Source of the DNA: Pedosphaera parvula Ellin514
GTDB lineage: Bacteria; Verrucomicrobiota; Verrucomicrobiia; Limisphaerales; Pedosphaeraceae
Direction: 5' to 3'
DNA length: 64,000 nt
Assembly (NCBI RefSeq): GCF_000172555.1
Contig: NZ_ABOX02000015.1
Coordinates: 1 to 64,000 of the forward strand
Made by a program: the position numbers and the translations under genes. The notes beneath the pieces were generated by a model. The model saw only the letters and a program-made list of their open reading frames with translations, searched no databases and was not told the DNA's origin. Below, piece by piece: positions 12,187 through 63,294 of this stretch; position 1 is the first letter of the stretch, and each line of letters starts with the position of its first letter.

Positions 12187-12309
12187 TGCCACCTGATGAT
12201 CAGCACAAGGGGATCATATGCGCATGGACAGGAAAAGTTGCAAATCTGGCCGGAGAACAACAGAGACATACATACCTCCCAGCAAGAGTGTTGCTTGTTT
12301 TGGGAGAGG

Positions 12310-27799: not shown

Positions 27800-27877
27800 G
27801 CACCAAGTCTCGCAACCAGAGGTTTCATCAGTCAATTCCGAAACCAACCTTGTCCGATCCAACCCGGGTCGTTCGCA

Positions 27878-39446: not shown

Positions 39447-42400
39447 TTACGGTGACACGGAGCGATAGTAACGTTGACCACTGTGCTGCGGATTCGGGTC
39501 GGTGAACGTGACGGTGTTGCCTGATGGGTTCGTGTGGCTTGTATCCAAGGGCGTCCAACTCGCCGGCGAAACGTTGGTTGTTACTTCGAGATGGTAGGGG
39601 AATCCCGGGTCGGTGGAGTACGTAATCGTCACGAAAGCATCACTGTTGACCGCGATTCCAGGAATCGCACGTCGAGGCGGGTTGCCGGGTGACAGGACTG
39701 CGAACGGCGCGCTGATGGCATTGCCCAAAGTAATTCCATTGGCAGGGGTGAACCATTTGTTCGTGAGATAATTTTGCACCGCTGCCAGATCCGCCGCATT
39801 GAGCGCGGTGTTGTAAACGAGCACTTCCGCCACGTCGCCGTCCCACCCGTTATCTACTGTGCCCGGCGATGGCTCGAGCCGCCCGCCGATCGTCACGTCG
39901 GTGATGGCGTATTTGTAAGGGCTGATTCCGTTGATGATGTTCGCGGCGTTGCTGCGTGAGAGCCCGGTAGATTCGGACACGAACAGACTAGCCGCGCCCG
40001 CGTTGTCCGCGAATGTCAGGACGAAGGGCGTGTTCACCGGAGCGGAGGCAACATTCCCTTGCATCGGAGTCGTAGCGTGATTTCGCTGAATTCCCAACGG
40101 ATACGGCGCGCCCTGGCTGCCGTCGGTGAGGACCACAACTCCCGCCGTTCCCTTGCCGTCAATTTGCCCACTCCCGCTGAAGCTCACCGGTCCTTGCCAG
40201 GCGGTTGAATTTTCCCACTGGCGCGCCACAACGAAGTAAGTCATCTGGCTGCTGCTGTTCGTGTAGGAGTTCCTGCCGATGTTGCCAAGGAACGTGCAGC
40301 CGGTTCCGAAGCCGCTGCCGTTTTTGTTGAAGCTGACGACCGGTTTGCCGTTGAGTTGGCCAAGCGCGGGTTGAAGTGCGGTTGAGTTTTGCGTGAACCA
40401 GAGGTTCGTACCGGACACGCCTGCGCCGCCGATGCCCTTGTTTTTCCACGCCTGAACTTTGTTGCCGTTGGTGGTGAGAGTGCTCGCGTCGTTGGAATCC
40501 AGCCAGAGCAACGCGCCGGAAACGGAGTTGCTGAATGCGGAAGAAGCCAATGATGCGACAAGCTGATTGCTGCTCCCAGGCGCATCAATTGCGAGATTGC
40601 TGAACCTGACAACTCCATTGCTGCCCGCAGCACCGATGTTGTAATGAGTGGTTCCCAGCAGTGTGCCGTTGCCATTGGTTAACGTGACGGCCACCAGCAA
40701 GCTTGCCGGCAACCCGGTGATGCTCGGATTTCCCGCCGAATCCACGGTTCGGAGCACCGGCTGCTGTCCAAATTGAACGCCCGCAACCGCTGAACCGGGC
40801 TGCGTCGTAAATGCGAGCATTGCAACCGGCCCGATGACTGTGAATGCGCTGCTGTTTTTCGATAGTGCGGAGCCGGCCAGCGCAGTGGCTATGAGCGTTT
40901 TCGAACCAGCCTGGTTCATGCTGAGGTCATTGAAATGAGCCAGGCCACCGCTGTCAGTCAATCGTGTCAACGTTCCGCTGAGAGTTCCCACACCGTTGCC
41001 GAGAGAAAGATTGATGCCCGCACCGATGACCGGTTGGCCATTCTCATCAAGCGCCTGCACTTGAACTTCCGGTGTGATCGTCGCACCCTGCAGCACACTG
41101 CCCGGTTGTTGCACGAAGGCCATCGCCGCTACTTGCGGGGTGAAGAAGCTGGCTGTCTCCGTGATTGGGCCGTTCATCGCGACAGAAGCTGGATTATTGA
41201 GGCCCGAATAGGAACCGCTTCCACTTCCCGTCCAGTTCGTGAACCTGAATCCGGTTGCAGGCGTTGCGGTAATGTTCACGGTCGCTCCGCTGTTCTGCCA
41301 ACCGCTGGCCGGATTCACACTGCCACCGGCGCCGGAGTTCACCGTGAGGTAAAACTGCGTCGCGAAATTCGCAATGTAAGCCGTGCTCGCCATCGGCGTG
41401 ATCGTGTGCGAAATCGCGCCGCCATCGCTCCAGGAAGTCCACACGTCCTGCACGCCAGTGCCGCTGTTCTGCGGCGAAGTCGTGCCAATAATGTGTGTCG
41501 AGCCTTGTATCCAGTTGAAGGATTGCGAGCTCGTGTAATTCGTCCCGTCCACGGAGAAGGAATGCCCCGGCGGATTGGCCTGCACCGCCACGGTGATGGG
41601 CTGGCTCAAAAAGTTGAACGCAAACTGGCTCGACTGATCAACGCAATCGGTCAGATACTTGTTGGTTTGCACGGCGACGAGGTTGGTGCCGTTCACAGTC
41701 AGGCCGCTCACGTTGAGCATTCCCTTCGCATCGCTGCGGGCGAACACACCAAAGACGCCGTCGCAATAATTGGTGTTAAACGGGAACGGGTCTTCAGGAT
41801 GATATGGTGGAACGCCCACCGCATAACCGAAAACGTTTACGTCGCTCATTCCTGCATTCGACAAGGTTCCACTCCCCGGCGAAACAACCTGAACCGCATA
41901 GGACAGCGCGTTCGAAATATTGATGTTGTTTATATTCAGCCCATTGACGGTGACGCCGTCTGGACAGAGCGTGAGCGCGCCACGCCATCGCCAACCGGGA
42001 TCATTGCCGCCACAACGAATGAGATCGCAGCGCTGAGCCACGGTCATTCCGCGAAATACATTTGTGCCAATGGGAAATGTGCCGGCAATCAAAATGCCGC
42101 AGCCATCCGGGGTGTCCTGAAGCAGGCAGTCCTCAACCCGATTGCTGACACCGCCATAAATGCCGACACAGTTTGCGAAGAACGGCGACTGCGCGGTGCA
42201 GTGTGAGAACACGTTGTTGCCCGCCTCGTAGGCAGCCGTACGATAAGTCGCGGGCCAGATGGCAAAGCTGTCATCGCCCGTATTTCTCGCGGTGCAATTG
42301 GTCACAATGGTATTGTGCATGCCCACGCATAAATTGATGCCGTCGGCGAGCGTGTTTCTGAAGCGGCAGTCCTGAATCACCATGCCGTTGGCATTCGCCA

Positions 42401-43424
42401 GCCACGCGCCAGTTTTAGTGTGTTCGACCCAAACCCGTGAAATGCTCGAGTTTGTCCCGAACACTTCGCTGAAACCATCATTCGCATGGGAGTCGTTTCG
42501 CGTGTTGAGTTTTCCGATGATCGCAAAGTCGGCGAAATGAATGTCGCTGCCTGCGCCATTGAACCGGACGCGACCGCGTTCGTTGAGGTAAGTGGCCGGA
42601 TTTCCCACGAACGTCGTGTACCACATGCCGGCTCCTTGAATCGTGACGCCGGAAGGCACATCGACATCGTTGGTGAGGAGATAGTTTCCTGACGGCACCC
42701 ACACGATGCCTGGCCCGGCAGCAACGCAGTTCTTGATGGCCACAGTGTCGTCAGCGATGCCGTTTCCAACAGCTCCGTAATTTAAAACGGAACGCGAATC
42801 GGGCGGCGCGGGGAGCGGTGGTGCGACATTTTCCAAATCCACCAGATCAATGATGTAATAGGGGGCGGTGTCGTCCGCATCCACTTGCAGGCGGACGTGA
42901 TCGTTCGAATTAATGGAGAGATTCAACAGCCGCGCTTCGTCATAGTAATCGCGTGCATTGCCATCGCCAGGGTTGTTGGAAAACGTGTATCCTCCATAGA
43001 GCCACGAATATTTCGACGTGACCGGAACCTTCCGAATGAACGTGCCGTTCACATAGAGGCTTATCGTCGAATCAATGCCGGCTCCGTCCGATGAATCGGG
43101 GATGCTGTAGCGCACGACCATCGCATTTGCCGCCGCCTGGGCAGTCAGCTCCACGTATTGTCCGGCAGTGGCGAGTTTGACGCACAATCTTCCCGACGAT
43201 TCCGCGGCGACGGTGTTGGTGATTTCCACATTTTTGTCCACGGCCCTTGGAGGTGGCCCGATAATCGCACCGCCGTTGATGGTCATGTTTTCAGCTTCGT
43301 AAGTCATCCACGGTACGGTTGCGCCTGGCGCTGCAACGCCCGATAAAGCGGGAATCAAAAGCATGCCGATTGTGAGTGTTAATACGATGAACTGCGAAGC
43401 AAAAAAGGGGGAAGGATTTTTCAT
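39447..43424 (-). CDS. GH87-type alpha-1,3-glucanase (mycodextranase-like), long form
   Basis: 1325 residues, signal peptide to about residue 32 (...ALSGVAAPG). An N-terminal beta-sandwich (about 40-200; TYEAENMT, KYSWLYGGYTF, PYYIIDLVDLENV) precedes a right-handed beta-helix (about 210-620; IQGAGMWYTTFVG, ISRVWVEHTK). D361 (LADGIN) and D384/D385 (TGDDSFAIWP) have the same 23/24-residue spacing as the three catalytic aspartates I recall for characterised GH87 enzymes. Then follow InlB B-repeat-like domains, two invasin/Big-like domains, a LamG-like domain (LLWLDSNDASTL...) and the C-terminal domain ending YYRSVSP. It should be exported and cut alpha-1,3-glucan internally, the appended domains binding glycan or surface. 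Confidence 0.88.
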   Translation of the reverse strand: MKNPSPFFASQFIVLTLTIGMLLIPALSGVAAPGATVPWMTYEAENMTINGGAIIGPPPRAVDKNVEITNTVAAESSGRLCVKLATAGQYVELTAQAAANAMVVRYSIPDSSDGAGIDSTISLYVNGTFIRKVPVTSKYSWLYGGYTFSNNPGDGNARDYYDEARLLNLSINSNDHVRLQVDADDTAPYYIIDLVDLENVAPPLPAPPDSRSVLNYGAVGNGIADDTVAIKNCVAAGPGIVWVPSGNYLLTNDVDVPSGVTIQGAGMWYTTFVGNPATYLNERGRVRFNGAGSDIHFADFAIIGKLNTRNDSHANDGFSEVFGTNSSISRVWVEHTKTGAWLANANGMVIQDCRFRNTLADGINLCVGMHNTIVTNCTARNTGDDSFAIWPATYRTAAYEAGNNVFSHCTAQSPFFANCVGIYGGVSNRVEDCLLQDTPDGCGILIAGTFPIGTNVFRGMTVAQRCDLIRCGGNDPGWRWRGALTLCPDGVTVNGLNINNINISNALSYAVQVVSPGSGTLSNAGMSDVNVFGYAVGVPPYHPEDPFPFNTNYCDGVFGVFARSDAKGMLNVSGLTVNGTNLVAVQTNKYLTDCVDQSSQFAFNFLSQPITVAVQANPPGHSFSVDGTNYTSSQSFNWIQGSTHIIGTTSPQNSGTGVQDVWTSWSDGGAISHTITPMASTAYIANFATQFYLTVNSGAGGSVNPASGWQNSGATVNITATPATGFRFTNWTGSGSGSYSGLNNPASVAMNGPITETASFFTPQVAAMAFVQQPGSVLQGATITPEVQVQALDENGQPVIGAGINLSLGNGVGTLSGTLTRLTDSGGLAHFNDLSMNQAGSKTLIATALAGSALSKNSSAFTVIGPVAMLAFTTQPGSAVAGVQFGQQPVLRTVDSAGNPSITGLPASLLVAVTLTNGNGTLLGTTHYNIGAAGSNGVVRFSNLAIDAPGSSNQLVASLASSAFSNSVSGALLWLDSNDASTLTTNGNKVQAWKNKGIGGAGVSGTNLWFTQNSTALQPALGQLNGKPVVSFNKNGSGFGTGCTFLGNIGRNSYTNSSSQMTYFVVARQWENSTAWQGPVSFSGSGQIDGKGTAGVVVLTDGSQGAPYPLGIQRNHATTPMQGNVASAPVNTPFVLTFADNAGAASLFVSESTGLSRSNAANIINGISPYKYAITDVTIGGRLEPSPGTVDNGWDGDVAEVLVYNTALNAADLAAVQNYLTNKWFTPANGITLGNAISAPFAVLSPGNPPRRAIPGIAVNSDAFVTITYSTDPGFPYHLEVTTNVSPASWTPLDTSHTNPSGNTVTFTDPNPQHSGQRYYRSVSP

Positions 43425-43545: not shown

Positions 43546-46500
43546 TTACGGCGAAATGATCCGATAAAAGCGAGGAGCCAGCGTCGGCGAATTGGTGTCG
43601 GTGAAAGTCACCATGTTGGCAGTCGCGTTCGTCCAACTGTCGGCAACAGCCGACCACTCCGGCGCGGAAATAGTCGTCGTTGTTTCCAGATGGTACAAAA
43701 AGCCCGGGGTGGCTGCGTACGTGATCTTTACCAGATCACCGATCAGGCTGATTTCCAAAATGGATTGAGCCGGAGGGGTATTGGTGATGAAGCCGATGCC
43801 AGACGCAAACAACGCATTGCTTCCGCTGGTGGCATCTGAAATAACAGTTACGTAGCCAGAGTAGTTCGTTGCCGCAAGCGGCGAAAATGTTAGCACGACA
43901 TTCGTCGAACTGGCGGGCGGAATCGAGCCAGCCCAGTCTCCATTGAATACCGTTGGGCACGTAATCGAACTCACGGTCAGGACCGCATTCCCGGAATTGC
44001 TGATGGTAAATACTCGATTGCTTGACGATCCGATTGGCACAGGACCAAAAGAGAGGTCGGCGGTCAAATTGAGTGTTTTCATCATCCCGATAAAATTGGC
44101 GCTTTGCGTGGCTGGCCCGTTGAGTGTGACGACCGCCGGATTGTTGTTGCCAGAATATGATCCCACGCCACTCCCGCTCCAGCTGTCAAAGCCGTAGCCA
44201 TTTGAAGCGGTGGCGCTCACATTCAACACCGCACTGTTACTGTACCAGCCGCTGGCGGGGGAGACGCTTCCTCCGAAACCTGCAACCGTTGTCAGATAGT
44301 ATTCGGGCGAGAAGTTCACCGTGTAAACCGTGTTTGTTGCCGGTGCAACAATGTTCGAAATTGCCCCACCGTTGCTCCACGAGCTCCAGACGAATCGAGT
44401 GCCTGCGCCACTGCTTTGAGGCGAGCTCGTCGCGATGGTGTGAACTGAACCTGGCATCCAACTGAAATCTTGCGCGTTGGTGTAATCCGTCCCGTCCACT
44501 GTGAATGATCGTCCCGACGGATTGGGTTGAACAGTGACTGAAATGTTGTTGGGAGCGAAATGGGCGGTCTGAGTGATCGGGCCGTTCATCGCGATGATCG
44601 CAGGATTGTCCATTCCCGAATACGAGCCGTTCCCGTTTCCAGTCCAACCGGTAAAACTGTATCCGTTTGATGCATTTGCACTGATGCTCAGGATTGCGCC
44701 GCTGTTCGTCCAGCGGTTGGCTGGAGTCACACTGCCGCCGGCATCCACGTTCATCGTCAAGAAATACTGTGTCCTGAAACTCGCTGTGTTCGTGGCAGGA
44801 CTTGTAGCTGTGATCGAGTGTGAGAGTGCTCCACCATCGCTCCAGTCGCTCCAGACGTATTGTGTTCCCGTTCCGCCAGCCTGCGGTGAAGTGGTGGAAA
44901 TAGTGTGCGATGAACCATAGAGCCAGTTGAACGTCTGCGCGGTACTGTAGTTGGTGCTGTCCACCGAGAAGGAGCGTCCTGACGGAGCGGTTTGCACGAC
45001 AACCGGGACATTCGAGGTCGCAAAATTAAAGGAAAAATTGGCTGACGCCTCCTGATATTCCACAATGGAGGAGTTGCTGACTGTCATGCTTCCGATTGTG
45101 TCGCTGCGCGCCCATAAACCGTGGCGACCACTCGTGCCCAAACCGTAATTTGGAATCACCACGTTCGACATGATCGCATTTGCCAGCGTGCCGACGCCAG
45201 TGCCGGTGCTGCTGCCTGGCGCGATGATGCTCACGCCATCGGAAATGCTGTTGGTAATCATCAAATTGTTCAGGTTCACGCCGGACATGCTTTTGTGGTC
45301 GAGGCAAAGCTGGACCGCACCGCGCCAGGTGAAGCCGGGATCGTAACCGCCGCAGCGATTCAAGTCGCAACGTTGTGCGATGGTGGTACCGCTGAAATTA
45401 TTCGCGCCGACCGCGAATGTTGTGCTGAACAGGATTCCGGAGCCGTACGGCATGTCTTGAACAAGGCAATCCTCGATCCTGTTGCTGTCGCCACCGTAAA
45501 TTGCGCCGCCGTTGGCGAGAAAAGGTGTCTGCGCCGTGCAGTGCGTAATGACGTTCAATCCGGGCGTGTATGTCTGCGAAGTGTACGTCGCCGGCCAGAT
45601 GGCAAAGCAATCATCGCCGGTGCCGCGAGCCGCACAATTCGTGACCGTGCAACTACGCATTCCGACACTGAAGTTGATTCCGTCGGCGATGGTGTTGCGG
45701 AAGCGACAACTGTCCACGACCAGGCCAAGCGAGTTGATGATCCATCCGCCAACCTTGGTGTGCTCCACCCAAAGGCGTGAGATGGTTGAGCCGGTGCCAT
45801 ACGAACCGCCCAGGCCATCGTTCGGCTCGCTATCGTTTCGATAATTCAACTTCCCGATAATCGCGAAGTCGGAAAGCTGAATATTGCTGCCACTGCCGTT
45901 CAAGGTGACGCGGCGATTTGAACTACCGTACAGAGATGGTTCGCCCACCAATGTTGTGTACCACATGCCAGCGCCCCGAATTGTACGATTCGATGGGATG
46001 CTGATCGAGCCAGTGATTTTGTAGGTGCTGGGAGGGATCCACACGTTGTTGTTCCCGTTGATACAATTTTGCAAAGCGGCGGTGTCGTCAGCCACGCCAT
46101 CCCCGACGGCGTTGTACGGCGCGCTCTTGATGGAAACTGACCCGCCCGGCTGGCTGAGAGCAGGGGTTGCGTCCTCCAGGTCAACAAGGTCAATGATGTA
46201 GTAGGGGGCAGTGTCGGTCGCATCCTTTTGCAATCTGATCACATCACCGGCGCTGATGGACACACCGTTCGTGCGTGCTTCATCGAAAAAATTGCGCGGC
46301 GAGCTGCCCGGCGTGTTGACGAAGGGATATGAACCATAAAGCCAGGAATACCTCGATGTGACGGGAAGTTTGCCGATGAAAGTGCCATTTTTGTAGAGAC
46401 TTATCGTGTAATCTGTGCCGACTCCGTCGGCAGAGTCCTGCACGCTGTATCGCACCACGAGGGAATTTGCCGTGGCCTGGGCAGTGAATTGAATGTAATG

Positions 46501-46752
46501 ACCGGTGGAACTCAACTGCGCGCATCTTCGGCCGGTTGATTCCGACGTCACAACGTTTGGGGTGTAGGCCGGTCCTAAAATGGCCCCGTTTACCGTCATG
46601 CTTTCCGCTTCGTAGGTGGTCCAGGGAACAACGGCGCCACTGATTCCAAACGCGCGCTGGCAAAAACAGATGAAAATCAGGACTGAAGCGAACTGAGAGA
46701 TGCACGCTCGGAACGACGGCCAAAAGCGGCCGGGAAAGACCATGTAATTCAT
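43546..46752 (-). CDS. GH87-type alpha-1,3-glucanase, mid-length form
   Basis: 1068 residues with a signal segment (FASVLIFICFCQRAFG). Domain order: beta-sandwich (TYEAESMT, RYSWLYGSYPF, PYYIIDLVDLEDA), beta-helix with GAGMWYTTLVG and ISRLWVEHTK, candidate catalytic D357 (IADGIN), D380 and D381 (TGDDCFAIWP), then three InlB B-repeat-like units (SFTGWTGNGNGSYSGMDNP), an abnormal-spindle-type domain (LSFGPVPIGSSSNRVFTISN) and the C-terminal domain ending FYRIISP. It is a paralogue of the enzymes at 39447 and 48780. A strong hairpin (46811-46840) lies upstream and ends the previous unit, so it probably has its own promoter; no palindromic element of the dispersed family precedes it. Confidence 0.88.
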   Translation of the reverse strand: MNYMVFPGRFWPSFRACISQFASVLIFICFCQRAFGISGAVVPWTTYEAESMTVNGAILGPAYTPNVVTSESTGRRCAQLSSTGHYIQFTAQATANSLVVRYSVQDSADGVGTDYTISLYKNGTFIGKLPVTSRYSWLYGSYPFVNTPGSSPRNFFDEARTNGVSISAGDVIRLQKDATDTAPYYIIDLVDLEDATPALSQPGGSVSIKSAPYNAVGDGVADDTAALQNCINGNNNVWIPPSTYKITGSISIPSNRTIRGAGMWYTTLVGEPSLYGSSNRRVTLNGSGSNIQLSDFAIIGKLNYRNDSEPNDGLGGSYGTGSTISRLWVEHTKVGGWIINSLGLVVDSCRFRNTIADGINFSVGMRSCTVTNCAARGTGDDCFAIWPATYTSQTYTPGLNVITHCTAQTPFLANGGAIYGGDSNRIEDCLVQDMPYGSGILFSTTFAVGANNFSGTTIAQRCDLNRCGGYDPGFTWRGAVQLCLDHKSMSGVNLNNLMITNSISDGVSIIAPGSSTGTGVGTLANAIMSNVVIPNYGLGTSGRHGLWARSDTIGSMTVSNSSIVEYQEASANFSFNFATSNVPVVVQTAPSGRSFSVDSTNYSTAQTFNWLYGSSHTISTTSPQAGGTGTQYVWSDWSDGGALSHSITATSPATNTASFRTQYFLTMNVDAGGSVTPANRWTNSGAILSISANASNGYSFTGWTGNGNGSYSGMDNPAIIAMNGPITQTAHFAPNNISVTVQPNPSGRSFTVDGTDYTNAQDFSWMPGSVHTIATSSPQSSGAGTRFVWSSWSNGGAISNIVAPATNTVYTVNFSPEYYLTTVAGFGGSVSPASGWYSNSAVLNVSATASNGYGFDSWSGSGVGSYSGNNNPAVVTLNGPATQSANFIGMMKTLNLTADLSFGPVPIGSSSNRVFTISNSGNAVLTVSSITCPTVFNGDWAGSIPPASSTNVVLTFSPLAATNYSGYVTVISDATSGSNALFASGIGFITNTPPAQSILEISLIGDLVKITYAATPGFLYHLETTTTISAPEWSAVADSWTNATANMVTFTDTNSPTLAPRFYRIISP

Positions 46753-46870: not shown

Positions 46871-48655
46871 TTATTGCTTTCTGACTCGAAGGAAGCTCTT
46901 GGTCGCATTTCCGGGCGTAACGGTCGCCGTAGTCGTGCTGCCGCTGGACGGAATTCCGGTGACCAAATCCGTCAGGCTCGATAGATCTGAGCCTGCCTGA
47001 ATCGCGTAGGTTGCTCCATTATCTGAGGTCCACATTAGAGTGAATTGACCACTGCTCGAATTGTAACTGAATGACGTGATCTGAATCGTCTCTGCCGGAC
47101 AACCGATGATGGAAAGATCGTTGGCGGCGATGGTGTAACTTCCTGAATAAGAGCTCGGATCCAGTTGCAGGTGGAAGAATGCAATGCTATTGAAGTCAAA
47201 TCCTGGCGTGCTTCCGGCTTGTGCGTTTACTCCCGCGCTTAACGCACTGGTCAATACCAGGTTTGTGCCCGGACTCTGTCCATACCAGGCGTAGCGCAAC
47301 TGAGTGCCATCGCCATCTTCGAGAATTACAAGCGGTCCCAGCTTACCATTGGCCTCAGCGGGAGCTGTCAGCGTCACATTGAATTGCAGTGTCCGATCCG
47401 GGGTCGTCGTGATATTTGGAGTGATGGCTGCGAAGCCCCCACCAAAGCCTGTGGCCGTCATCTGCCAGCTTGTGGCAGTGGAAACCTCATTCGCGCTTTG
47501 CCAGCCGACGTAATCTCCGCCCATGAAGAAATTGTCGAACGTGCTGATGGTTGCACAAACTCCCGTGTTGGTGCCGCCACCTCCATCGCCGCCGCCATCG
47601 CAACCGATGATTGAGAGATCGTTCCATGCGACAGTGTAGCTGCCCGAATACGTGCTCGGATCGAGCTGGATGTGAAAGAACGAAATGGTTGAAAAATCAA
47701 AACCGGGGACCGACCCGGCCTGCGCAACGACGCCCGCGTTCAGTGCACTGGTCAACACCAGATTGGTGCCGGGGTTCTGGCCATACCATGTGTAACGCAG
47801 TTGCGTGCCGTCCCCGTCTTCAAGGACGACGATAGGACCCAGTGTCCCGTTCGCTCCGCTCGGAGCGGTCAACGTAACATTCAGTTGAAGGGTTTTGTCC
47901 GACGTGGTGTTGATGGCTGGAGTGACGCCGCGGAACCCACCGCCAAAACCGCTGGCGGTAATCTGCAAACTATTGGCCGTTGGCGTTTGAGTGGTCCAAT
48001 TGCCATATGTTCCACTCAGACTGAGGTTGTCAAATGAGCTCACCACCGCGCAAACGCCCGTGCTGACGCCACTGCTCCCACTCGTAAATTTGACGTCGTT
48101 AAGCGCGACGGTGTAAGCGCCGCCGTAAGTGGACGGATCCAGTTCCACGTTGAGATGCCAGATGGATGAGAGATCAAGATTGGCCGGGTTACCGACAATC
48201 AGATAGCCTGTGTTGTTTGTGGCGCCATTATCGCTGCTTTGGGCGACATTGGACAAACTGCCGGTCAGAATATGATTCCCCAAGGTCCGTCCGTACCAGC
48301 GGTAGCTGACGACCGTGCCATCACCGTCTGTCAGAGTGATGATCGGTCCGATTTTCCCACTGGCATTCGTATCGGTTGAGCTAAGGGTGACATCAAAAAC
48401 AATATTCGAGTTCCCCGCTGCATTGATGGGGCCGACCTGCTTCCAAAGACTGCCATAGCCACCGGAGGAACCGATGATGTAATTGGTTGGGGTGGGGGTA
48501 ACCGTCGCCGAGGACCACGAAGCATAGAGTGCGTTCGGTGGGGAAAAACCGGGCGTGTCAAACGTGCTGATGGTGGTGTCCGCTTTTGTCGAACGGGCCA
48601 TTGTCATGCACGCAGTCAATGCAAGGAGGGTGATGGGCCTATTGATGTATTTCAT
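46871..48655 (-). CDS. Secreted triple-repeat putative carbohydrate-binding protein
   Basis: 594 residues with a signal peptide (PITLLALTACMTMARSTKA). Three copies of a roughly 160-residue domain follow, each with an N-terminal STFDN/SSFDN strand, a LTDGDGT or LEDGDGTQLRY(T/A)WYGQ core, and an LDPSTY/SSYSGSYT-x-A-x-NDLSIIGC end. Copies 2 and 3 are far more alike than copy 1. The last part joins the common C-terminal domain (FSYNSSSGQFTLMWTSDNGA) and ends FLRVRKQ. No family name comes to mind. Flanked by GH87 genes on both sides, it is plausibly a glycan-binding protein for the same polysaccharide; that role is inferred from position, repeats and the acidic DGDG turns. Confidence 0.7.
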   Translation of the reverse strand: MKYINRPITLLALTACMTMARSTKADTTISTFDTPGFSPPNALYASWSSATVTPTPTNYIIGSSGGYGSLWKQVGPINAAGNSNIVFDVTLSSTDTNASGKIGPIITLTDGDGTVVSYRWYGRTLGNHILTGSLSNVAQSSDNGATNNTGYLIVGNPANLDLSSIWHLNVELDPSTYGGAYTVALNDVKFTSGSSGVSTGVCAVVSSFDNLSLSGTYGNWTTQTPTANSLQITASGFGGGFRGVTPAINTTSDKTLQLNVTLTAPSGANGTLGPIVVLEDGDGTQLRYTWYGQNPGTNLVLTSALNAGVVAQAGSVPGFDFSTISFFHIQLDPSTYSGSYTVAWNDLSIIGCDGGGDGGGGTNTGVCATISTFDNFFMGGDYVGWQSANEVSTATSWQMTATGFGGGFAAITPNITTTPDRTLQFNVTLTAPAEANGKLGPLVILEDGDGTQLRYAWYGQSPGTNLVLTSALSAGVNAQAGSTPGFDFNSIAFFHLQLDPSSYSGSYTIAANDLSIIGCPAETIQITSFSYNSSSGQFTLMWTSDNGATYAIQAGSDLSSLTDLVTGIPSSGSTTTATVTPGNATKSFLRVRKQ

Positions 48656-48779: not shown

Positions 48780-50501
48780 TTATTGCCTCAAAATCTCAAA
48801 TTTGGAAGAACTATTTTGAATGTCTGCGATTTGGGAATTCACGAGCACCAGGCTTCCGGCGGCGTCCTCGCGGATCCACAAACCGCGTCGCGAGTCCGAG
48901 CCGATTCCGCAGTTGGGGATATTCACGTTTTCGAGGCGCACGTTGGAAAGCGTGCCTTGTCCCTTTTTGCCGCCAGGTGCGACGATCGTCAGGCCGTCAG
49001 AGAAGCTGTCACGAATGTTTATGTTGTTGATTTGCACGCCGGAAATGCTCCGGCGATCCATACAAAGCTGGAATGAACCGCGCCAAGTCCAACCGTGATC
49101 GTAACCGCCGCAGCGAATCAGATCGCAGTTCCTCACAACCGTTGTTCCGCTGAAGTTGTTATCAATCTTGCGGGCCTCATCCGAAGTTGGAAATGTTGTG
49201 CTAATCAATATTCCGCACCCGCTCGAAATGTCGGTGAACAGACAGTCCTCGACCTTATTGTCAGTGCCACCGTAAATCGCCGCGCCGTTTGCAAGGAAAG
49301 TCAATTGGCCAGTGCAGCGGCGAAAGATGTTTAGTCCAGGCACGTTATTCTCAGCAAAACCTTGATCGGACGGCGCGGGCCAGATCGCAAAACAGTCGTC
49401 GCCTGTGCCGCGAGCCGTGCAGTTTTGAACGACCGACTCACGCGTCCCGACGCAGAAATTTACCCCGTCGGCAAGCAGGTTTCGAAATCTACACTCTTCA
49501 ATAGTCAATTTGGCGCCGTTATAGATCCACGCGCCGACCTTGGTGTGTTCCACCCAAACACGGGAAATGGTGGCCTTCTCGCAGTTAGCTCCGACAATTC
49601 CATCGTTCGCTTCATTGTCGTCGCGGTAATTCAGTTTTCCTTCAATTGCGAAATCCGCGAGACGGATGTTGCTGCCGGTGAGTTTGAACCTGATTCGCTT
49701 TTCAGCCTGGCTGTAAAGCTCGGCATCACCGACAAAGGTTGTATGCCACATGCCTGCGCCTTGAATCGTCATGTCTGATGAGGGGACGATATCGCCGGTA
49801 AGTTTGTAAACGCCGGCGGGCACCCAAACGGTTTTAGCCTGCTTCTTCGCCGCTGCGATGCACTTTCTCAACGCTTCGGTATCGTCGCTTTCACCCGTGC
49901 CAGCGGCCCCAAAATCCATGATCGAAAGCGATTTCGTGGGTGCAGAGAGCGGTGGCGCGATTTTCTCCAGGTCAACAAGATCAATAATGCAATATGCCGC
50001 ATTGTCCTCGGTTTTTTGCAATCGGATGACATCGCCCTTGACGATGGATTGGTCTTTCAAGCGAAGTTCATTGTAAAAATTTCTCGGCTTTCCCCCCTTG
50101 GGCTGGTTTGAAAATGGGTAATTCCCGTAGAGCCATGAATAGCGCGAGGTGACAGGAATCAACTTCACGAGTTTCCCATTTTTGTAAAGGCCAAGACTCG
50201 AACTTATTCCGCCTCCGGTTTCGGAGTCCGGCAGGCTGTAGCGTACCACGATCGCATTTGCGGCCGATTGTGCGGTGAACTCCACGTATTCTCCCGGAGC
50301 GGCGAGCTTCACACACTTCTGCTGCGATGATTCGGTTTCAACCAGGAAGGGAGCGTATTTGGGCCCCAGAACGGTGCCGGTCGTTTTCATTTCCTCGGCT
50401 TCATAAGTCGTCCACGGTGTGTCAGCGCCCACACCGGCGCGAACTGAAATCGAACAAATAGCCGCGAAAAGAAAAACTGCGAATCGGAAAAGGGCTTTCA
50501 T
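48780..50501 (-). CDS. GH87-type alpha-1,3-glucanase, minimal form
   Basis: 573 residues: signal peptide MKALFRFAVFLFAAICSISV, beta-sandwich (TYEAEEMK, RYSWLYGNYPF, CIIDLVDLEKI) and beta-helix only. The key aspartates D345 (LADGVN), D368 and D369 (TGDDCFAIWP) are in place, and GAGMWHTTFVG and ISRVWVEHTKVGAW match the two longer paralogues. It ends just after the helix (KFEILRQ) without the common C-terminal domain or binding modules, so it may be periplasmic or freely secreted. It is lysine-richer than its paralogues. A palindromic element lies 70 bases before its start. Confidence 0.88.
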   Translation of the reverse strand: MKALFRFAVFLFAAICSISVRAGVGADTPWTTYEAEEMKTTGTVLGPKYAPFLVETESSQQKCVKLAAPGEYVEFTAQSAANAIVVRYSLPDSETGGGISSSLGLYKNGKLVKLIPVTSRYSWLYGNYPFSNQPKGGKPRNFYNELRLKDQSIVKGDVIRLQKTEDNAAYCIIDLVDLEKIAPPLSAPTKSLSIMDFGAAGTGESDDTEALRKCIAAAKKQAKTVWVPAGVYKLTGDIVPSSDMTIQGAGMWHTTFVGDAELYSQAEKRIRFKLTGSNIRLADFAIEGKLNYRDDNEANDGIVGANCEKATISRVWVEHTKVGAWIYNGAKLTIEECRFRNLLADGVNFCVGTRESVVQNCTARGTGDDCFAIWPAPSDQGFAENNVPGLNIFRRCTGQLTFLANGAAIYGGTDNKVEDCLFTDISSGCGILISTTFPTSDEARKIDNNFSGTTVVRNCDLIRCGGYDHGWTWRGSFQLCMDRRSISGVQINNINIRDSFSDGLTIVAPGGKKGQGTLSNVRLENVNIPNCGIGSDSRRGLWIREDAAGSLVLVNSQIADIQNSSSKFEILRQ

Positions 50502-50659: not shown

Positions 50660-52468
50660 TCACGGCTTTCGCAAACGGAAGAACACAGCCGGATTCGCCG
50701 GGTTAATCGGAAGCACGAACGGACTAATGCCGCCGCTGCCCGAGTCAGTCCAGTTTGCGTTGTTGGTGTCCAGACCTGTGCTGTTTGTCTGGCCCACGAC
50801 ATAATATCCAGGAAATGCAGTCGTGTCCCACGACAACGTCAGATTGCCGCCGCTGAATGAGTGGGAAAGTGCCGGAGATCCGGAAGAAGACCCGCCGGTG
50901 TAATGGAGTTTGATGGTGGTGCCATCAGTGATGAGCGTGTAGTTGGTCGAACTTGCAGGCGCGGTCACCCATTGCAAAACCGGGGTGCCTGAAATACTCG
51001 CAGCCGTGGCGAGGAGATAATCGTTTGCGGTATCAATGCCAATGCCCGCGCTCGGTGCTTTGAGGCGGAACCGCGTGTTGTTCAGATTCAATGCGCCATC
51101 AACAACCAACAGGTCGTGAGGAGCCGCCGCAACGGTATCAATATCCATCGCGTTCGTGCTACCGGCCGCCATCGTCAGGTCGCCAGTGATGTGGTTGATG
51201 CCAAAACCGCCATCCGTGCCGGCATAAATCTTCGAACCCGAAACAGTCGTGGCGTTGCCTTTAAGCACGCCACTGCCGAAGTACGATTCCGTGCCGGGCA
51301 TTGCGTGAGCGCCTCCGCTCAATGCGGTGACATCCAATGACGCGCCTGCAGCAATCGTCAGCGAGTTGGTAACGAACAGACTTGTGCTGGAAATGGCACC
51401 TGTAGCGGTGCTGTCAACGAGCAAACTTGTGAAGCCGCCGTTGATATCAGGCGCCGCACCGGTGAAACGAACAGTGCCAGTCGCATTCGGGGTAAAGCTG
51501 CCGCCCGAGCGCGTCCAAACGCCCGCGCCGGTATTCGTGACGGTGAGCGTGGCTGCGGCGGGGATTGTGATGCGTCCATTGCTCATGTTAAACGCGCCCA
51601 CAGTGAATGCCGCGGGAAATGTGCTCGCCGTTGAAGATGAGGCCGAATAAGTGAACGTGCCGGGAATGGTGCCATTCAACGGCCAGGAATTGACAGATGC
51701 AGTATTCAAGATAGTGAGGTTATGGGCGATGCTCAGGCCGACACCGTTCAGATTCCACCCCGCAGTCCCGGTACTCCCGAGCACAAGGTCGTAGTAAGCC
51801 GTCGCCTTGGGCGTCGCAGTTCCATTGAAGCCGGTCCACGTGACAAGGTTCGGAACGGCGCTGCAATCCAGCGTGGCAATCGAGGGGGTTGTATTCTGGC
51901 CACTGGCCAGAACGAGGGTCGCGAGGTTGGCCAATGCACCTGAACCCTTCAGCGCGTCCTGCGTTCCTTTAAGTCCGGTAACAAATGTTCCAACGTTCTG
52001 GTATGTCCCGTTGATCACTGCAACGACATTGCTGATGTTGCCCGCCAAAATTTTGCCCGTGCCGTTGTAGGTATAAATCGTTCCTGAACCAAGTGCGGTG
52101 ATGGACATGTTGCCCTGGTTTGTGACGTTGCCGCTAAAAATAACAGCCGCACCAGACGCGGTGGGATTGAACGTGCCTGTGCTTTCAATCGATATGTCGC
52201 CCAGCGTGCCGGCAGCCGAGATGGAAAACGTTCCGGCAATTTGAATCGCGCCGACTGTGGCGGGCGAGCCTCCATAGGTCACGGTTTTGCCGATTGGAAT
52301 TATCGCTGCGTCTGATGCGCCGGGAATTCCGTTTGGATCCCAGGTGCTGGCAGTGTTCCACGCCGCATTGTTGGTGGCAGTGTATGTTGTCGCTTGAACC
52401 GCGAGGGCGCTGAGCAATGTGGCTGTGCTGAGCACCGCACCGGCGAGTTGGTGGGCTTTTCGTCTCAT
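50660..52468 (-). CDS. Secreted beta-helix protein of unknown function
   Basis: 602 residues from ATG 52468 (MRRKAHQLAGAVLSTATLLS, signal ending AVQA); an earlier ATG at 52501 adds 11 polar residues. The mature part begins with a TNNAAWNTASTWDPNGIPG block like G8/autotransporter-type repeats and continues as Thr/Ala/Gly-rich strands with frequent NLTI, SLTIAAG and GDLTMAAGS steps. The C-terminal region (LTLSWDTTAFPGYYVVGQTN ... FFRLRKP) is the common domain. No catalytic motif is seen. A palindromic element precedes it and a terminator follows, so it is its own transcript within the glucan gene block. A surface structural or glycan-handling role is possible. Confidence 0.78.
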   Translation of the reverse strand: MRRKAHQLAGAVLSTATLLSALAVQATTYTATNNAAWNTASTWDPNGIPGASDAAIIPIGKTVTYGGSPATVGAIQIAGTFSISAAGTLGDISIESTGTFNPTASGAAVIFSGNVTNQGNMSITALGSGTIYTYNGTGKILAGNISNVVAVINGTYQNVGTFVTGLKGTQDALKGSGALANLATLVLASGQNTTPSIATLDCSAVPNLVTWTGFNGTATPKATAYYDLVLGSTGTAGWNLNGVGLSIAHNLTILNTASVNSWPLNGTIPGTFTYSASSSTASTFPAAFTVGAFNMSNGRITIPAAATLTVTNTGAGVWTRSGGSFTPNATGTVRFTGAAPDINGGFTSLLVDSTATGAISSTSLFVTNSLTIAAGASLDVTALSGGAHAMPGTESYFGSGVLKGNATTVSGSKIYAGTDGGFGINHITGDLTMAAGSTNAMDIDTVAAAPHDLLVVDGALNLNNTRFRLKAPSAGIGIDTANDYLLATAASISGTPVLQWVTAPASSTNYTLITDGTTIKLHYTGGSSSGSPALSHSFSGGNLTLSWDTTAFPGYYVVGQTNSTGLDTNNANWTDSGSGGISPFVLPINPANPAVFFRLRKP

Positions 52469-52587
52469 ATGGTTCTGTTGTTTGCAGTCAACGCATCGCA
52501 CCTGAGCGAGTGACGCCGGGTCGCGAAATGTTGCATGTGTTTTTATGGATGGCTGCGAAGGTAGAGCAACCGGTCATCGGGCTGACA

Positions 52588-52647: not shown

Positions 52648-54960
52648 TCAACCTGTTCGCTTGCCTCGGTGGAGCTTCAGTTGGTTGGAGTTTCCTGGCG
52701 TGCAATAGGCCTCCTTGCCCGCCACAATGAACCTGCGCTCACTTCTGTTCGAAGCTGCAGCGATTATCGTCACCTCGGCGTTGGTGATTTTCAGATCGAA
52801 TCGGTCACATTTGTAAACGATACTAAACTCCAAACATTTCCACCTTTTAGGGAGCCGAGGATTGAGTGCAACGTGATCTACATTCACCTTGAGGCCGCCA
52901 AAGCCAAACACTGCTGTCATCCAGGCTCCGCCGTTGGCAGCCGGATGCGACCCGCCCATGAAAATCGTTCCCACGAAAACTTTGTACTTGGCCTCAAGAT
53001 CGATCTTCGCGGTCTGCAGAAAATAGCGATACGCCCAGTCGAGCTTGCCGATGTCCGCAGCGAGCATAGCGTAGGCGCAAGCACTGAGGCTTGATCCGTG
53101 TTCGCTACGTGGCTCATAATATTCCCAATTGGCCCTTTTGACTTTTGCCGGGTAGCGCTCCTTGAAGAGGTTCAACATCATTACCACATCGGCCTGCTTG
53201 ATGACTTTGGTCGGAACAGCCAGGCCTTGACCGGCGCCGAGATATTCATCGGGATGAAGCTTCCTGGCTTTTAATTCCTCAATCTTCGCCTCCTTCAATT
53301 TGAAGTAAGCGTCGAACTGCTCGATAATTCCGGTCTTCCGGTCGGGTTCCGGAATGTAAAGCAGGTTGACCGCCTCAGCGAAGAAGGACAGTTCGTTCTC
53401 AATCCCAATCTTCCTCACGAGCGCACGCAACTCCGCAGGATGTTTTTGCTTGAGATGCTTGACCGTCGCGATGGCGATTTCAAACGTCGCCTTCACGACC
53501 ATATTGGTGAAGGCGTTGTTGTTAATCCGCTCGTGATATTCATCCGGGCCGATCACATCGAGAATCTCGTAGCGGTTTTTATCCTTTTTGAAATACGCAT
53601 ACGAATAGTAGAAGCGCGCACATTCCAAAATGACCTCCGCGCCTCCTTCCAACAGCAACGAATCATCACCCGTTACCCTGAAATATTCCCACATGGCAAT
53701 CGCGACATCGCCGCTGATGTGAACCTGCTTATCCCGAAAGTGCGTGCGCAATTCTCTTCCGGTGAACGGATCGCCAACGTTGAAATATGTGCAGGCATCA
53801 TCACCCGTCTCCTGGCTCTCCCAGGCGTAGAACGCGCCGCGATAACCGACCCCTTCGCTCTGCGCCTTTCTCCGCGCGCCATCCAACGTTTTGATTCGAT
53901 AGCGCAACAACTCGACGGCTTTCTCAGGATAACTATGGAGAAAGAACGGGAACATGAACATTTCCGTGTCCCAGAAAATGGCGCCTTTGTAAACCTGACC
54001 TGATAACGCTCGCGCAGGAATCGAGTTCGCGCTGCCATTCACCGGCGCGACCATCAGCAATTGGAAAATGCTATATCGCAAGGCGTGTTGTGCTTTGTCA
54101 TCGCCTTCGATCTTCACATCGCAACGCTTCCACTTCTTTTCCCATTCGGCGTTGTGTATGTTCAAACACGCCTCGTAGCCGTGCGCCTTCGCGTGTTCGA
54201 CCGTTTCAATCGCGGCTTTCTTCGCAGACTTCCTGACGGGATCATGGTCTGTGAACACGGCAAAGTATTTGTAAAACGTGTACGTTCTTCCGGCCTCAAT
54301 ATTCGTGCCAATCACGCGAAGATGTTTTTTGCCGGTCGCTGAGTGCACTTCTTTTCCAAAATCACATTTAATCGCTTCGACGACGACAACTCGTTTGGAT
54401 GCTTCATTCGTAACGCCGTGAACGAGCAAAACTCCGCCATGCTTTTCCGGAGTCAGTTTCAACAGATGCGGCCCGTTCAGGTCCCAAATGTTGGAATCAA
54501 TGCCGGTGTGAATGGTGATTGCGGCGGCAGTATTGCAGGTGAGGCTGAACCTGATCACGCCCAGGTTCGGCGTGTTGGCGCTTAAGAACCGCGAGGATTT
54601 GATCGTGAGCGTTTTTCCTCGCGACGAAAACGTCGTTTCCCGTTCGAAGATGGCGTTGGAAAGATTCAGCCTTTGTTCATGGTGCTTGATTCTGGTGGAG
54701 AGCGCTGAAATGTCCACGCCATCGAGCGACACCTGCGTAAAGGCGCCATTCGGAGCGTTCACTGGCTCGCGCCAGGCGTCGCCGACGCGATCGAAAATCC
54801 CGGCGAGCGTGATGCCCACCAATTGTTCGGGTCCAAATTCATCCAGCGTTCCCCGGTATCCCATGTAGCCGTTCGCAATCTGGTAAACATTACCAGTACG
54901 CATGATGCTTTCCTGTTCATTGATGAATTGATTGGTGCTGACCGACCAAGGTTTGCTCAT
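52648..54960 (-). CDS. GH65 disaccharide phosphorylase (nigerose/kojibiose/maltose type)
   Basis: 770 residues, no signal peptide, so cytoplasmic. Hallmarks of GH65 are the N-terminal NGYMGYRGTLDEFGPE, IFWDTEMFMFPF near residue 330, the general acid E474 in IGPDEYHERINNNAF, and the phosphate-binding SEHGSSLSACAYA. These enzymes use phosphate to split an alpha-linked diglucoside into glucose and beta-glucose-1-phosphate with inversion. Which disaccharide is used cannot be told from motifs; the GH87/GH71 context favours nigerose (alpha-1,3). The start overlaps the end of the transporter gene by 44 bases, and beta-phosphoglucomutase, the enzyme that uses its product, is first in the operon. Confidence 0.93.
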   Translation of the reverse strand: MSKPWSVSTNQFINEQESIMRTGNVYQIANGYMGYRGTLDEFGPEQLVGITLAGIFDRVGDAWREPVNAPNGAFTQVSLDGVDISALSTRIKHHEQRLNLSNAIFERETTFSSRGKTLTIKSSRFLSANTPNLGVIRFSLTCNTAAAITIHTGIDSNIWDLNGPHLLKLTPEKHGGVLLVHGVTNEASKRVVVVEAIKCDFGKEVHSATGKKHLRVIGTNIEAGRTYTFYKYFAVFTDHDPVRKSAKKAAIETVEHAKAHGYEACLNIHNAEWEKKWKRCDVKIEGDDKAQHALRYSIFQLLMVAPVNGSANSIPARALSGQVYKGAIFWDTEMFMFPFFLHSYPEKAVELLRYRIKTLDGARRKAQSEGVGYRGAFYAWESQETGDDACTYFNVGDPFTGRELRTHFRDKQVHISGDVAIAMWEYFRVTGDDSLLLEGGAEVILECARFYYSYAYFKKDKNRYEILDVIGPDEYHERINNNAFTNMVVKATFEIAIATVKHLKQKHPAELRALVRKIGIENELSFFAEAVNLLYIPEPDRKTGIIEQFDAYFKLKEAKIEELKARKLHPDEYLGAGQGLAVPTKVIKQADVVMMLNLFKERYPAKVKRANWEYYEPRSEHGSSLSACAYAMLAADIGKLDWAYRYFLQTAKIDLEAKYKVFVGTIFMGGSHPAANGGAWMTAVFGFGGLKVNVDHVALNPRLPKRWKCLEFSIVYKCDRFDLKITNAEVTIIAAASNRSERRFIVAGKEAYCTPGNSNQLKLHRGKRTG

Positions 54961-56473
54961 GTTGAATCACGCTTCCTTCTCTGCCGTTGTCTTTCACAAA
55001 CATCATCAGGACACCCGCGACGATCATGGATACGCCGCCCAAAACCATCATCTTAATGGCGTGTCCTTCGAACCAGTGCCGAAGCATCAGTCCCATCGTT
55101 GCGGCTGCCAGGATTTGCGGGATGACGATGAAGAAATTAAACATCCCCATATACACTCCCATCTTCCGATGCGGCACCACGCTGCTTAAAATCGCGTAGG
55201 GCATCGTGAGCAAGCCCGCCCATGCAATGCCAAGGCCCGCCATGGAAATCACCAACAAGTGTGGGTTCTTAAAAAGATGCAGGGACATCATTCCAAGGCC
55301 TCCGACGAAAAGGCAGAACACATGCGTGGTCACGCGACTGGTCTTCTTTGCGATGACCGGAAGAATGAAGGCCACCAGCGCCGCCATGCCATTGTAAACG
55401 GAATTCAGCACACCCACCCAATCAGCGCCTTCGTTGTATTGTTTGGTCAGTGGATCGCTGGTGCCGTAGTGAAAACTGGTGATCGCCGGCGTGCAGTAGA
55501 TGAACCACGCGAACATGGCGAACCAGGTGAACATTGTTACCACGGCGAGCTGTCGCATGGTCCCAGGCATGTTGTTCAAATCATATATGATTTCAACCAG
55601 ACCGCGTTTCATCCCGGATTTGAATAGCTGCGCTGCCGTCAGTTGTAATGCTCCATAGACGGCGATGCCAAAGGATAGAATGTAAAGCGCGCGATCCCAT
55701 GCGAAATGTTTGACCAAATACGTGAGTATGAGACCTGCACTCAGCAACACGAAACCGGAGGCGTTATATTTCCCCGTGTTTAGCGTGAGTTCGTTCTGTT
55801 CCTTCGCGGCAGGATTCGTCTCATGCGCACTAAACGCTTCCATTTCTGCAGGTGAATATTCCTTGGTGGTAAAAATCGTCCACAGGACGGCGCTGATGTA
55901 GATGATGCCGCCTACGTAGAATGCCCACCTTACGGATGGCGGGATTAGTCCGACCTCTGCTGTGTTCGGAATTTTTAACCAATTGGTCAAGATGTAGGGC
56001 AACAACGAACCGACGATGGAGGCAGCACCAATGAAAAAAGTCTGTACGGCAAAACCTTGCGTCCGCTGCTCGTCCGACAGCATGTCGCCAACAAACGCCC
56101 GCATGGGTTCCATGGTGACGTTGATTGAGGCGTCGAGCATCCAGAGCATTCCCGCTGCGACCCATAATGTGGGCGAATTGGGCATGACCAACAGCGCCAA
56201 CGAAGCCAGGATTGCGCCGCTGAGAAAGTAAGGTTTCCGCCGCCCCAGCCGGTTCCAGGTCCGATCACTCATGTAGCCGATAATTGGCTGCACAATCAAC
56301 CCGGACAATGGTGCAGCAATCCACAGAGCCGGAATGTCATCCTGCCTGGCGCCAAGCGTTTCGAAAATGCGACTCAGGTTGCTATTCTGGAGAGCGAAAC
56401 CGAACTGGATGCCGATGTAGCCGAAGCTCATGTTCCAGAGCTGCCAGAAGTTTAGAAGAGGTTTGCTTCTCAT
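54917..56473 (-). CDS. Disaccharide transporter, SLC45/GPH-like major facilitator
   Basis: 518 residues with about 12 hydrophobic segments. Family marks include the cytoplasmic loop IGYMSDRTWNRLGRRKPY between helices 2 and 3, the MEPMRAFVGDMLSD loop, and FAWFIYCTPAITSFHYG in helix 7-8. Bacterial relatives carry maltose or other glucosides, usually with protons. Here it lies between a GH65 phosphorylase and beta-phosphoglucomutase, overlapping both genes (44 and 4 bases), so it should import the disaccharide cleaved by GH65 across the inner membrane. No outer membrane porin or TonB-dependent receptor for it is visible in the window. Confidence 0.9.
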   Translation of the reverse strand: MRSKPLLNFWQLWNMSFGYIGIQFGFALQNSNLSRIFETLGARQDDIPALWIAAPLSGLIVQPIIGYMSDRTWNRLGRRKPYFLSGAILASLALLVMPNSPTLWVAAGMLWMLDASINVTMEPMRAFVGDMLSDEQRTQGFAVQTFFIGAASIVGSLLPYILTNWLKIPNTAEVGLIPPSVRWAFYVGGIIYISAVLWTIFTTKEYSPAEMEAFSAHETNPAAKEQNELTLNTGKYNASGFVLLSAGLILTYLVKHFAWDRALYILSFGIAVYGALQLTAAQLFKSGMKRGLVEIIYDLNNMPGTMRQLAVVTMFTWFAMFAWFIYCTPAITSFHYGTSDPLTKQYNEGADWVGVLNSVYNGMAALVAFILPVIAKKTSRVTTHVFCLFVGGLGMMSLHLFKNPHLLVISMAGLGIAWAGLLTMPYAILSSVVPHRKMGVYMGMFNFFIVIPQILAAATMGLMLRHWFEGHAIKMMVLGGVSMIVAGVLMMFVKDNGREGSVIQHEQTLVGQHQSIHQ

Positions 56474-57267
56474 AGGCTTGTCGAATGAATTGGCTGCCTA
56501 ACCATAGCGTGCAGCTGCTTCACGGCAACCAGCCGATCAATCCCTTCCACGCTGATTTCTGAAAGATCGCGGACCACAAGGTCCGCTCCGTGATGCTTTA
56601 ATTCGTCGACATTATCTTCCCGGGCGACTCCAATGACCAATCCAAATCCGCCTTTGGCTCCAGCCTGCACACCGGACACCGCGTCCTCCACAACAACCGC
56701 GCGTGCATAACTGACGCCAAGATTTTTGCTCGCTGTTGTGAAGATATCAGGCTCCGGTTTTCCGTTTAATCCAAACTCCGCCGAAACCATACCGTCCACT
56801 CGTGTCCCGAACAAATGCGCGATGCGCGCCTTTTCCAGAATCTGCAAACAGTTTTTGCTGGAAGTCGCAAGCCCGACTTTGATTCCTCCCGCCAGTAAAT
56901 CTTTGATCAGCGCAATTGTTGATTCGTAAAGCCCGACGCCCTCTTCTTCGAGTACTCGATTAAAAAACTCATTCTTTCGATTTCCCAGGCCACACACGGT
57001 CGCTTTTTGAGGCTCATCTTCGGGCTTGCCGAACGGAACCTGTATTCCCCTCGAGTTCAAAAATGCAGCCACGCCTTTGTATCGAGGCCGTCCGTCAACA
57101 AAGGATAAATAGTCCCCCGAATGAGTGAATGCCCGAAACGGCTCGCCGTACTGCTTCTCCCTGAATCGAAGGTATTCATCAAACATGGCTTTCCAGGCTC
57201 GTGAATGAACGGCAGCCGTTCTGGTAATGACGCCGTCCATATCGAAAATAACTGCATCAAAATTCAT
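56470..57267 (-). CDS. pgmB: Beta-phosphoglucomutase
   Basis: 265 residues of the HAD superfamily. The nucleophile and acid/base aspartates are in IFDMDGVITRT at the N-terminus; the cap contains FVDGRPRYKGV; later motifs are LATSSKN and the Mg-binding VVEDAVSGVQAGAKGG. The long cap with the DGRPRY block is the subtype usually found beside or fused to GH65 enzymes. It converts beta-glucose-1-phosphate to glucose-6-phosphate, feeding glycolysis. First gene of a three-gene overlapping operon, with a palindromic element 75 bases upstream. Confidence 0.93.
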   Translation of the reverse strand: MNFDAVIFDMDGVITRTAAVHSRAWKAMFDEYLRFREKQYGEPFRAFTHSGDYLSFVDGRPRYKGVAAFLNSRGIQVPFGKPEDEPQKATVCGLGNRKNEFFNRVLEEEGVGLYESTIALIKDLLAGGIKVGLATSSKNCLQILEKARIAHLFGTRVDGMVSAEFGLNGKPEPDIFTTASKNLGVSYARAVVVEDAVSGVQAGAKGGFGLVIGVAREDNVDELKHHGADLVVRDLSEISVEGIDRLVAVKQLHAMVRQPIHSTSL

Positions 57268-63064: not shown

Positions 63065-63294
63065 GGTGCTCCTTTGCTTCATTGCCGCGATAATAGGACT
63101 CAGGAACCGCTTGGCAAGCCTTTCGCAGCGCGGGATCGAGTGTGACAAGGCGACCCGTGAAAAAACATTGAAGCTGTTGCCCGGCAGTGCGAGCGAACCT
63201 TATTTTCTGCAATTACTGCGTTCTGTTGTTGCGGAGAAATACGGTTGCCAGCAGTTGTAACATTTTGCGAAGCTCTGAGCAAAGGACAAGCGGC

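Follow-up and report, generated by a model that had tools for sequence, protein, structure and literature searches.

A secreted three-repeat protein with candidate carbohydrate-binding domains in a GH87-rich locus of Pedosphaera parvula Ellin514

What does an exported, repetitive protein that belongs to no nameable family do among genes for GH87 enzymes? We addressed this question for a protein of 594 residues encoded in a 64,000-nucleotide stretch of Pedosphaera parvula Ellin514 DNA (contig NZ_ABOX02000015.1, positions 1 to 64,000), the whole of which is called the window here. Our preferred reading, which we consider reasonably probable, is that the protein is a secreted, noncatalytic glycan binder built from three jelly-rolls resembling carbohydrate-binding modules (CBMs), most likely directed at alpha-1,3-glucan and serving the enzymes of the locus. 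An insoluble polymer, alpha-1,3-glucan occurs in fungal walls and in dental plaque (PMC12394665, accessible part), and few of its binders appear to have been characterized, judging from the accessible parts of PMC12394665 and PMC10696023. A domain recurring beside GH87 and GH71/99-like genes is a candidate for a new alpha-1,3-glucan-binding module that can be put to the test, and the linkage of domain and enzymes points to a verrucomicrobial degradation system.

An exported three-repeat protein in a run of GH87 genes

The protein is encoded on the minus strand and has a hydrophobic, signal-peptide-like N terminus, read by eye, in agreement with an initial annotation of the window that had called it exported. 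Its parts are as follows.

46871..48655 (-), exported three-repeat protein, 594 aa: open reading frame with a signal-peptide-like N terminus, followed by three CBM-like domains and ending in a small all-beta tail
48080..48583 (-), domain copy R1, aa ~26-194, divergent and without bracketing cysteines
47603..48055 (-), domain copy R2, aa ~200-352, AlphaFold model 1
47102..47560 (-), domain copy R3, aa ~365-519, AlphaFold model 2 together with the tail
46874..47080 (-), C-terminal all-beta tail of ~69 aa, six strands predicted

The three related domains already noted in the initial annotation, about 150 to 168 aa in length, are real repeats, as their local alignment scores (R1/R2, 227; R1/R3, 222; R2/R3, 577) lie far above the maxima from 500 shuffles each (76, 61, and 62, respectively). 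The DGDGTxxxYxWYG core described there is present in all three copies. The NDLSIIGC ending, which had been taken as conserved throughout, holds for R2 and R3 but not for R1, which ends in NDVKFTS. Cysteines bracket R2 (202/352) and R3 (367/519), and across four multirepeat proteins this pair occurs in 9/9 copies of the R2/R3 type and 0/4 R1 copies; a disulfide may therefore span the ends of each cysteine-bracketed domain.

A recent origin of copies 2 and 3, as had been proposed, is ruled out by their divergence and by a tree of 24 domains. R2 and R3 are identical at 107 of 157 aligned residues and 309 of 471 aligned bases. In the tree, the first copies of four genomes cluster together (support 98/95), as do the C-terminal copies of the same four genomes (99/95), and this copy-wise grouping indicates that the duplications took place before these genomes diverged.

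The gene belongs to a codirectional minus-strand run of eight genes, extending from 57267 to 39447, in the order beta-phosphoglucomutase family, MFS, GH65, exported type, GH87, three-repeat gene, GH87, and GH87. The first three genes overlap, and the remaining gaps measure 118 to 158 bp. The location of the protein among GH87 genes had been recognized correctly, with the genes at 39447, 43546, and 48780 all being GH87 (CatAgl_D1/D2). The relevant neighbors in the window are listed below.

20996..23635 (+), GH87-type gene, the fourth in the window
26528..27862 (-), enzyme of the GH71/99 superfamily carrying a DxxE dyad of the GH71 type, 19 kb from the three-repeat gene
28811..29434 (-), LuxR-type response regulator
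29431..33192 (-), sensor kinase with a Reg_prop propeller and a Y_Y_Y domain
39447..43424 (-), GH87-family gene, CatAgl_D1/D2
43546..46752 (-), GH87-family gene, 118 bp downstream of the three-repeat gene
48780..50501 (-), GH87 gene (alpha-1,3-glucanase family), 124 bp upstream of the three-repeat gene
50660..52501 (-), exported-type protein belonging to the eight-gene run, matched only weakly by G8 (below cut-off)
52648..54960 (-), GH65 family, alpha-glucoside phosphorylase/hydrolase type
54917..56473 (-), MFS sugar transporter, overlapping the GH65 gene
56470..57267 (-), beta-phosphoglucomutase-family HAD protein, overlapping the MFS gene

The nearest solved relatives of the GH65 gene product are GH65 4ktp and kojibiose phosphorylase 3wiq, and we do not claim that it is a nigerose phosphorylase; GH65 specificity positions are treated in PMC8537180 (accessible part). 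Homologues of the Reg_prop sensor kinase lie near the domain gene in four genomes (G019, G262, G005, and G264). Promoter- and terminator-like sites occur at shuffle level (13 versus a mean of 10.7 and 18 versus a mean of 21.7, respectively). Elsewhere, the window encodes a large protein that combines a SASA-type esterase domain with a PATR repeat (12196-16152), a CBM35/F5_F8 protein, a DUF3160 protein with HEAT repeats (59489-63148), and a phage-integrase-type gene (57733-58869) situated just upstream of the run, near the DUF3160 gene.

Distribution and predicted fold of the domain

Sequence searches gave the domain no name, and the initial annotation had been unable to name a family either. 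For the whole protein, the best Pfam match was fn3_5 (E 0.011, below cut-off), NCBIfam returned nothing useful, and the best PDB match by sequence was a T-cell receptor chain (E 0.072); a 26-row profile of the domain reached E 0.81 at best in the PDB. Compared singly with Pfam, 26 domain sequences drew 11 families, each matched by a single sequence, including Cbm74 (E 0.46), and no Pfam CBM exceeded the cut-off. Viral contigs yielded 51 pattern stretches with 0 confirmed, a scan of genome contigs yielded 3 loci, all of them close relatives, and among the papers listed in literature searches we recognized none on the domain. It is best described as narrowly distributed, CBM-like, and unnamed. 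The earlier suggestion of a new family is supported only to the extent that the domain is absent from Pfam, NCBIfam, and PDB sequences.

Of the 320 genomes of the order, an 11-domain profile matches 16 at E <= 1e-3 and 11 at the stricter E <= 1e-30; in a phylum-wide draw that included the Ellin514 genome, it matches 6/387. We distinguish a core group of 13 genomes from 10 genera (G000, G001, G005, G019, G055, G109, G110, G126, G262, G264, G317, G525, and G546) from more distant, outer members. The line between them was set after the scores had been seen, at a gap from E 8.3e-27 to 9.4e-10 with profile A3, which was built from five core genomes, so that those five match by construction; the gap also depends on the profile, since outer members reach about 5e-33 with the wider profile A4. 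Two core genomes, G525 and G546, lie outside the order, G546 belonging to another family of the phylum. With the 26-row profile, the order of G546 gave matches in 4/43 genomes and the class of G525 in 10/146, and besides G546 and G525 themselves these were distant members only. G123 (E 9.9e-4) was left out of the fetched loci. Among the relatives are several small proteins that have PEP-CTERM-like ends.

Structure prediction, which had been suggested as a check on the repeats, produced models of modest confidence for R2 and R3, both of which match CBMs. Model 1 (R2, 13 sequences) has a pLDDT of 59.6 and a pTM of 0.57; model 2 (R3 plus tail) has a pLDDT of 71.2 and a pTM of 0.50, with the tail at about 82-92. 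Both form a CBM-type beta-sandwich and, among the matches listed, look like jelly-roll CBMs at VIA Z scores of about 9-11, where unmatched models typically give Z 7-8. The best Foldseek match of model 1 is CBM11 (E 2.6e-4), and in VIA this model aligns with CBM11 6r31 (Z 9.6, 136 aligned, 3.8 A), residues 657-813 of xanthanase 6fhj (Z 10.9), the module of mannanase 1wky (Z 10.8), and SGBP-B 7kwc of Bacteroides thetaiotaomicron (Z 9.9). For model 2, VIA gives 1wky at Z 10.3 and CBM11 6r31 at Z 10.0, and Foldseek places a beta-1,2-glucanase first and CBM11 eleventh (E 2.8e-3), with two unrelated-looking entries, an insecticidal toxin and a phage tail complex, in rows 4 and 5. The top VIA places of both models fall mostly to modules of polysaccharide-degrading enzymes (CBM11, CBM30, 1wky, 6fhj, agarases, and SGBP-B). 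Non-CBM jelly-rolls score close to these with both models (for model 1, Z is 9.3 for FlaA1, 9.2 for a viral turret protein, and 8.8 for a complex I assembly factor), and the fold alone is therefore no proof of sugar binding.

CBM11 is matched in fold by both models with both programs, several other CBM families tying with it. In Pfam, however, none of the 26 domain sequences matches it up to an E of 10, in searches whose HMMER filters drop most matches above 0.1. The same predicted jelly-roll extends over the whole domain in CBM11 (the Clostridium thermocellum Lic26A-Cel5E module, 1v0a/6r31), CBM30, CBM27, CBM16, and the 1wky and 6fhj modules (VIA Z about 8-11), and jelly-roll CBMs such as CBM11 are likewise modules that accompany polysaccharide-degrading enzymes. 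Identity to CBM11 is only 9-14% in structural alignments, without a match at the sequence level, and CBM11, whose ligand is named as beta-1,3-1,4-glucan in the entry titles, sits in enzymes, whereas our domain is found mostly in stand-alone proteins. SGBP-B (7kwc/7kwb) is also a noncatalytic multidomain binder, one domain of which aligns at Z 9.7-9.9, but with 6-7% identity. Binders of this Bacteroidota type are lipoproteins encoded beside SusC/SusD; among the window proteins scanned, which represent part of the window's open reading frames, no Pfam match to SusC or SusD was found.

Within the domain, W90 is present in 19/19 core rows and 0/7 outer rows, where other aromatics take its place, and Y91 in 17/19 core rows and 1/7 outer rows. 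From this pattern, both are candidate ligand residues. Conserved acids in the core rows are D80 (19/19), D82 (18/19), and D132 (19/19), D80 being present in 7/7 outer rows as well. The 19 core rows leave out three rows of locus L025 and two of the three rows of L027.

Gene linkage to the GH87 and GH71/99-like families

Within about 10 kb of the domain gene, a GH87 and/or GH71/99-like gene was found with local profiles in 12/13 core genomes, versus 0/14 fetched loci of distant relatives (Fisher p 7e-7, uncorrected for relatedness); the flanks fetched measure 6-9 kb in most cases, less where a contig ends. GH87 is nearby in seven core genomes (G000, G001, G019, G262, G005, G525, and G546) and absent from the fetched stretch of the other six. 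GH71/99-like relatives are the commonest neighbor of the domain gene, occurring in 8/13 core genomes in the fetched stretches, or 9/13 counting G001, whose copy lies on the same contig 24 kb away. A tie of the domain to GH87 alone is ruled out by these counts. Five genomes (G055, G126, G109, G110, and G264) have the GH71/99-like gene only, with no GH87 nearby. The sole core genome with neither in its fetched stretch is G317, where the domain gene (L058:8522-9340, minus strand) adjoins a gene with a match to GH15, a glucoamylase family.

Genome-wide searches for both enzyme families covered the order, G525 and G546 being represented by their fetched stretches. A GH71/99-like gene is present in 9/11 genomes with the domain versus 19/309 others (p 4e-9), or in 6/8 versus 9/110 genera (p 4e-5). 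For GH87, the figures are 5/11 versus 13/309 genomes (p 1e-4) and 4/8 versus 6/110 genera (p 0.002). Domain and GH71/99-like gene share one contig in all nine genomes having both; the G110 copy of the latter is cut by the contig end and contains one in-frame stop.

The most direct functional clue is a single case. In G546, the domain forms the N-terminal part of a 431-aa protein (L071:7784-9079, minus strand) whose second half is a BD-FAE-type esterase (E 8.9e-25), the ordinary layout of a CBM plus an enzyme. The fusion gene lies 26 bp from a GH87 gene and near bPGM-like, two GH65, and GH87-CBM6 genes. It is the one instance in the 13 core genomes of the domain as a module within an enzyme, no fusion to a known catalytic domain having been seen in the other 12.

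The partner enzyme at 26528-27862 represents a family matching 28/320 genomes of the order at E <= 1e-30. A GH71-type DxxE dyad (D346, E349) is present in 7/7 aligned sequences, and the catalytic place reads DFGE, DYGE, or DFEE in the family; the accessible part of PMC12394665 describes an aspartate in the dyad as occurring almost only in GH71 alpha-1,3-glucanases and a glutamate almost only in GH99. In Pfam, the partner scores 48.5 bits as GH99 (cut-off 33) and 25.5 bits, below the cut-off of 34, as GH71, and its solved relatives by sequence are GH99-type enzymes. On sequence grounds, the family sits between GH71 and GH99. A Prevotella GH71/99-like enzyme described in PMC13421300 (accessible part) had low activity on all substrates tested; yeast cells gave no detected activity, and crude material from Streptococcus mutans biofilm gave a little.

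Proposed role, alternatives, and a shared tail

A glycan-binding role of the three-repeat protein is likely, given the predicted fold, the esterase fusion, and the conserved linkage to GH87 and GH71/99-like genes, and the same evidence supports the carbohydrate-binding module postulated in the initial annotation. We propose that the three tandem beta-jelly-roll domains would act as a multivalent stand-alone binder of alpha-1,3-glucan, or of the alpha-1,3-linked portion of a mixed glucan, and that polymer binding would keep the GH87 and GH71/99-like enzymes, which are secreted, working near the cell. Oligosaccharides set free in this way would be taken up by the MFS transporter and then processed by the GH65 enzyme and the beta-phosphoglucomutase. 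Sugar binding itself, its ligand, display at the surface, a gain in avidity from having tandem copies, and the sugar pathway that follows are all inferred.

For the ligand, alpha-1,3-glucan is our best guess from the neighboring genes, all characterized GH87 enzymes being mutanases or mycodextranases according to the accessible part of PMC13421300. The partner's higher GH99 score, its GH99-type solved relatives, and the low activity of the Prevotella enzyme make this a best guess and not a result. The SASA-type protein at 12196-16152 hints at an acylated substrate, and together with the BD-FAE esterase of G546 it suggests that the true substrate could be a heteropolysaccharide that is acylated. 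It is accordingly conceivable, if on balance unlikely, that the protein binds a glycan other than alpha-1,3-glucan, such as a further portion of an acylated exopolysaccharide of microbial origin in which alpha-1,3-glucose is only one component. The esterase-type genes, the partner's Pfam scores, and the six core genomes without GH87 in the fetched stretch would fit such a ligand, whereas the GH71-type dyad in all aligned partner sequences and the presence of GH87 near the domain in seven core genomes, including two outside the order, argue against it.

Less likely still is a role in the structure or matrix of the cell surface, in which the jelly-roll would be a scaffold without sugar binding and the gene linkage a matter of coregulation only. 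Such a role is consistent with the small relatives carrying PEP-CTERM-like ends, the close scores of non-CBM jelly-rolls, and the distant relatives that lack linkage to either enzyme family, but it sits poorly with the esterase fusion, with an enzyme linkage specific to the core group, and with the core-specific W90 and Y91. That the domain is itself an enzyme of an undescribed family, as its conserved acids and lack of a database family might suggest, is highly improbable, since D80 extends to the outer rows, the acids could serve turns or a structural metal, and the fold matches mostly binding modules.

A broader proposal can be entertained, which we advance tentatively and would not ourselves bet on: the domain may found a new alpha-1,3-glucan-specific CBM family of mainly stand-alone binders, multivalent in this lineage. 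Its setting would be a verrucomicrobial locus that works without SusC/D, is controlled by a two-component system of the Reg_prop type, and combines GH87 with a bacterial enzyme of GH71 type lying outside the GH71 and GH99 groups characterized so far. The binding domains described in PMC12394665 and PMC10696023 (accessible parts) have the same proposed ligand and are likewise associated with GH71/GH87 enzymes, but they belong to the glucanase protein itself, unlike the present stand-alone domain. According to the accessible part of PMC13421300, a putative polysaccharide utilization locus (PUL) of Prevotella melaninogenica with GH87, GH97, and GH71/99-like genes also pairs GH87 with a DYGE (GH71-type) enzyme, but differs in having a TonB-dependent transporter and a surface sugar-binding protein; its authors state that, to their knowledge, no GH87-containing PUL has been characterized and no bacterial GH71 enzyme studied.

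The C-terminal tail of about 69 aa may be Ig/Fn3-like. A profile in which 8 of 10 rows come from the window itself finds related tails of about 70 aa, mostly ending in F/Y-x-R, in at least 69 places in the genome when 150 of 253 candidates are scored (E <= 1e-3). The window copies are as follows.

46874-47080, 43549-43758, 39450-39659, 50663-50872, 36592-36801, 10997-11206, 15940-16149, and 20952-21161, shared C-terminal tail of ~70 aa

This shared segment may be a sorting or anchoring tail.
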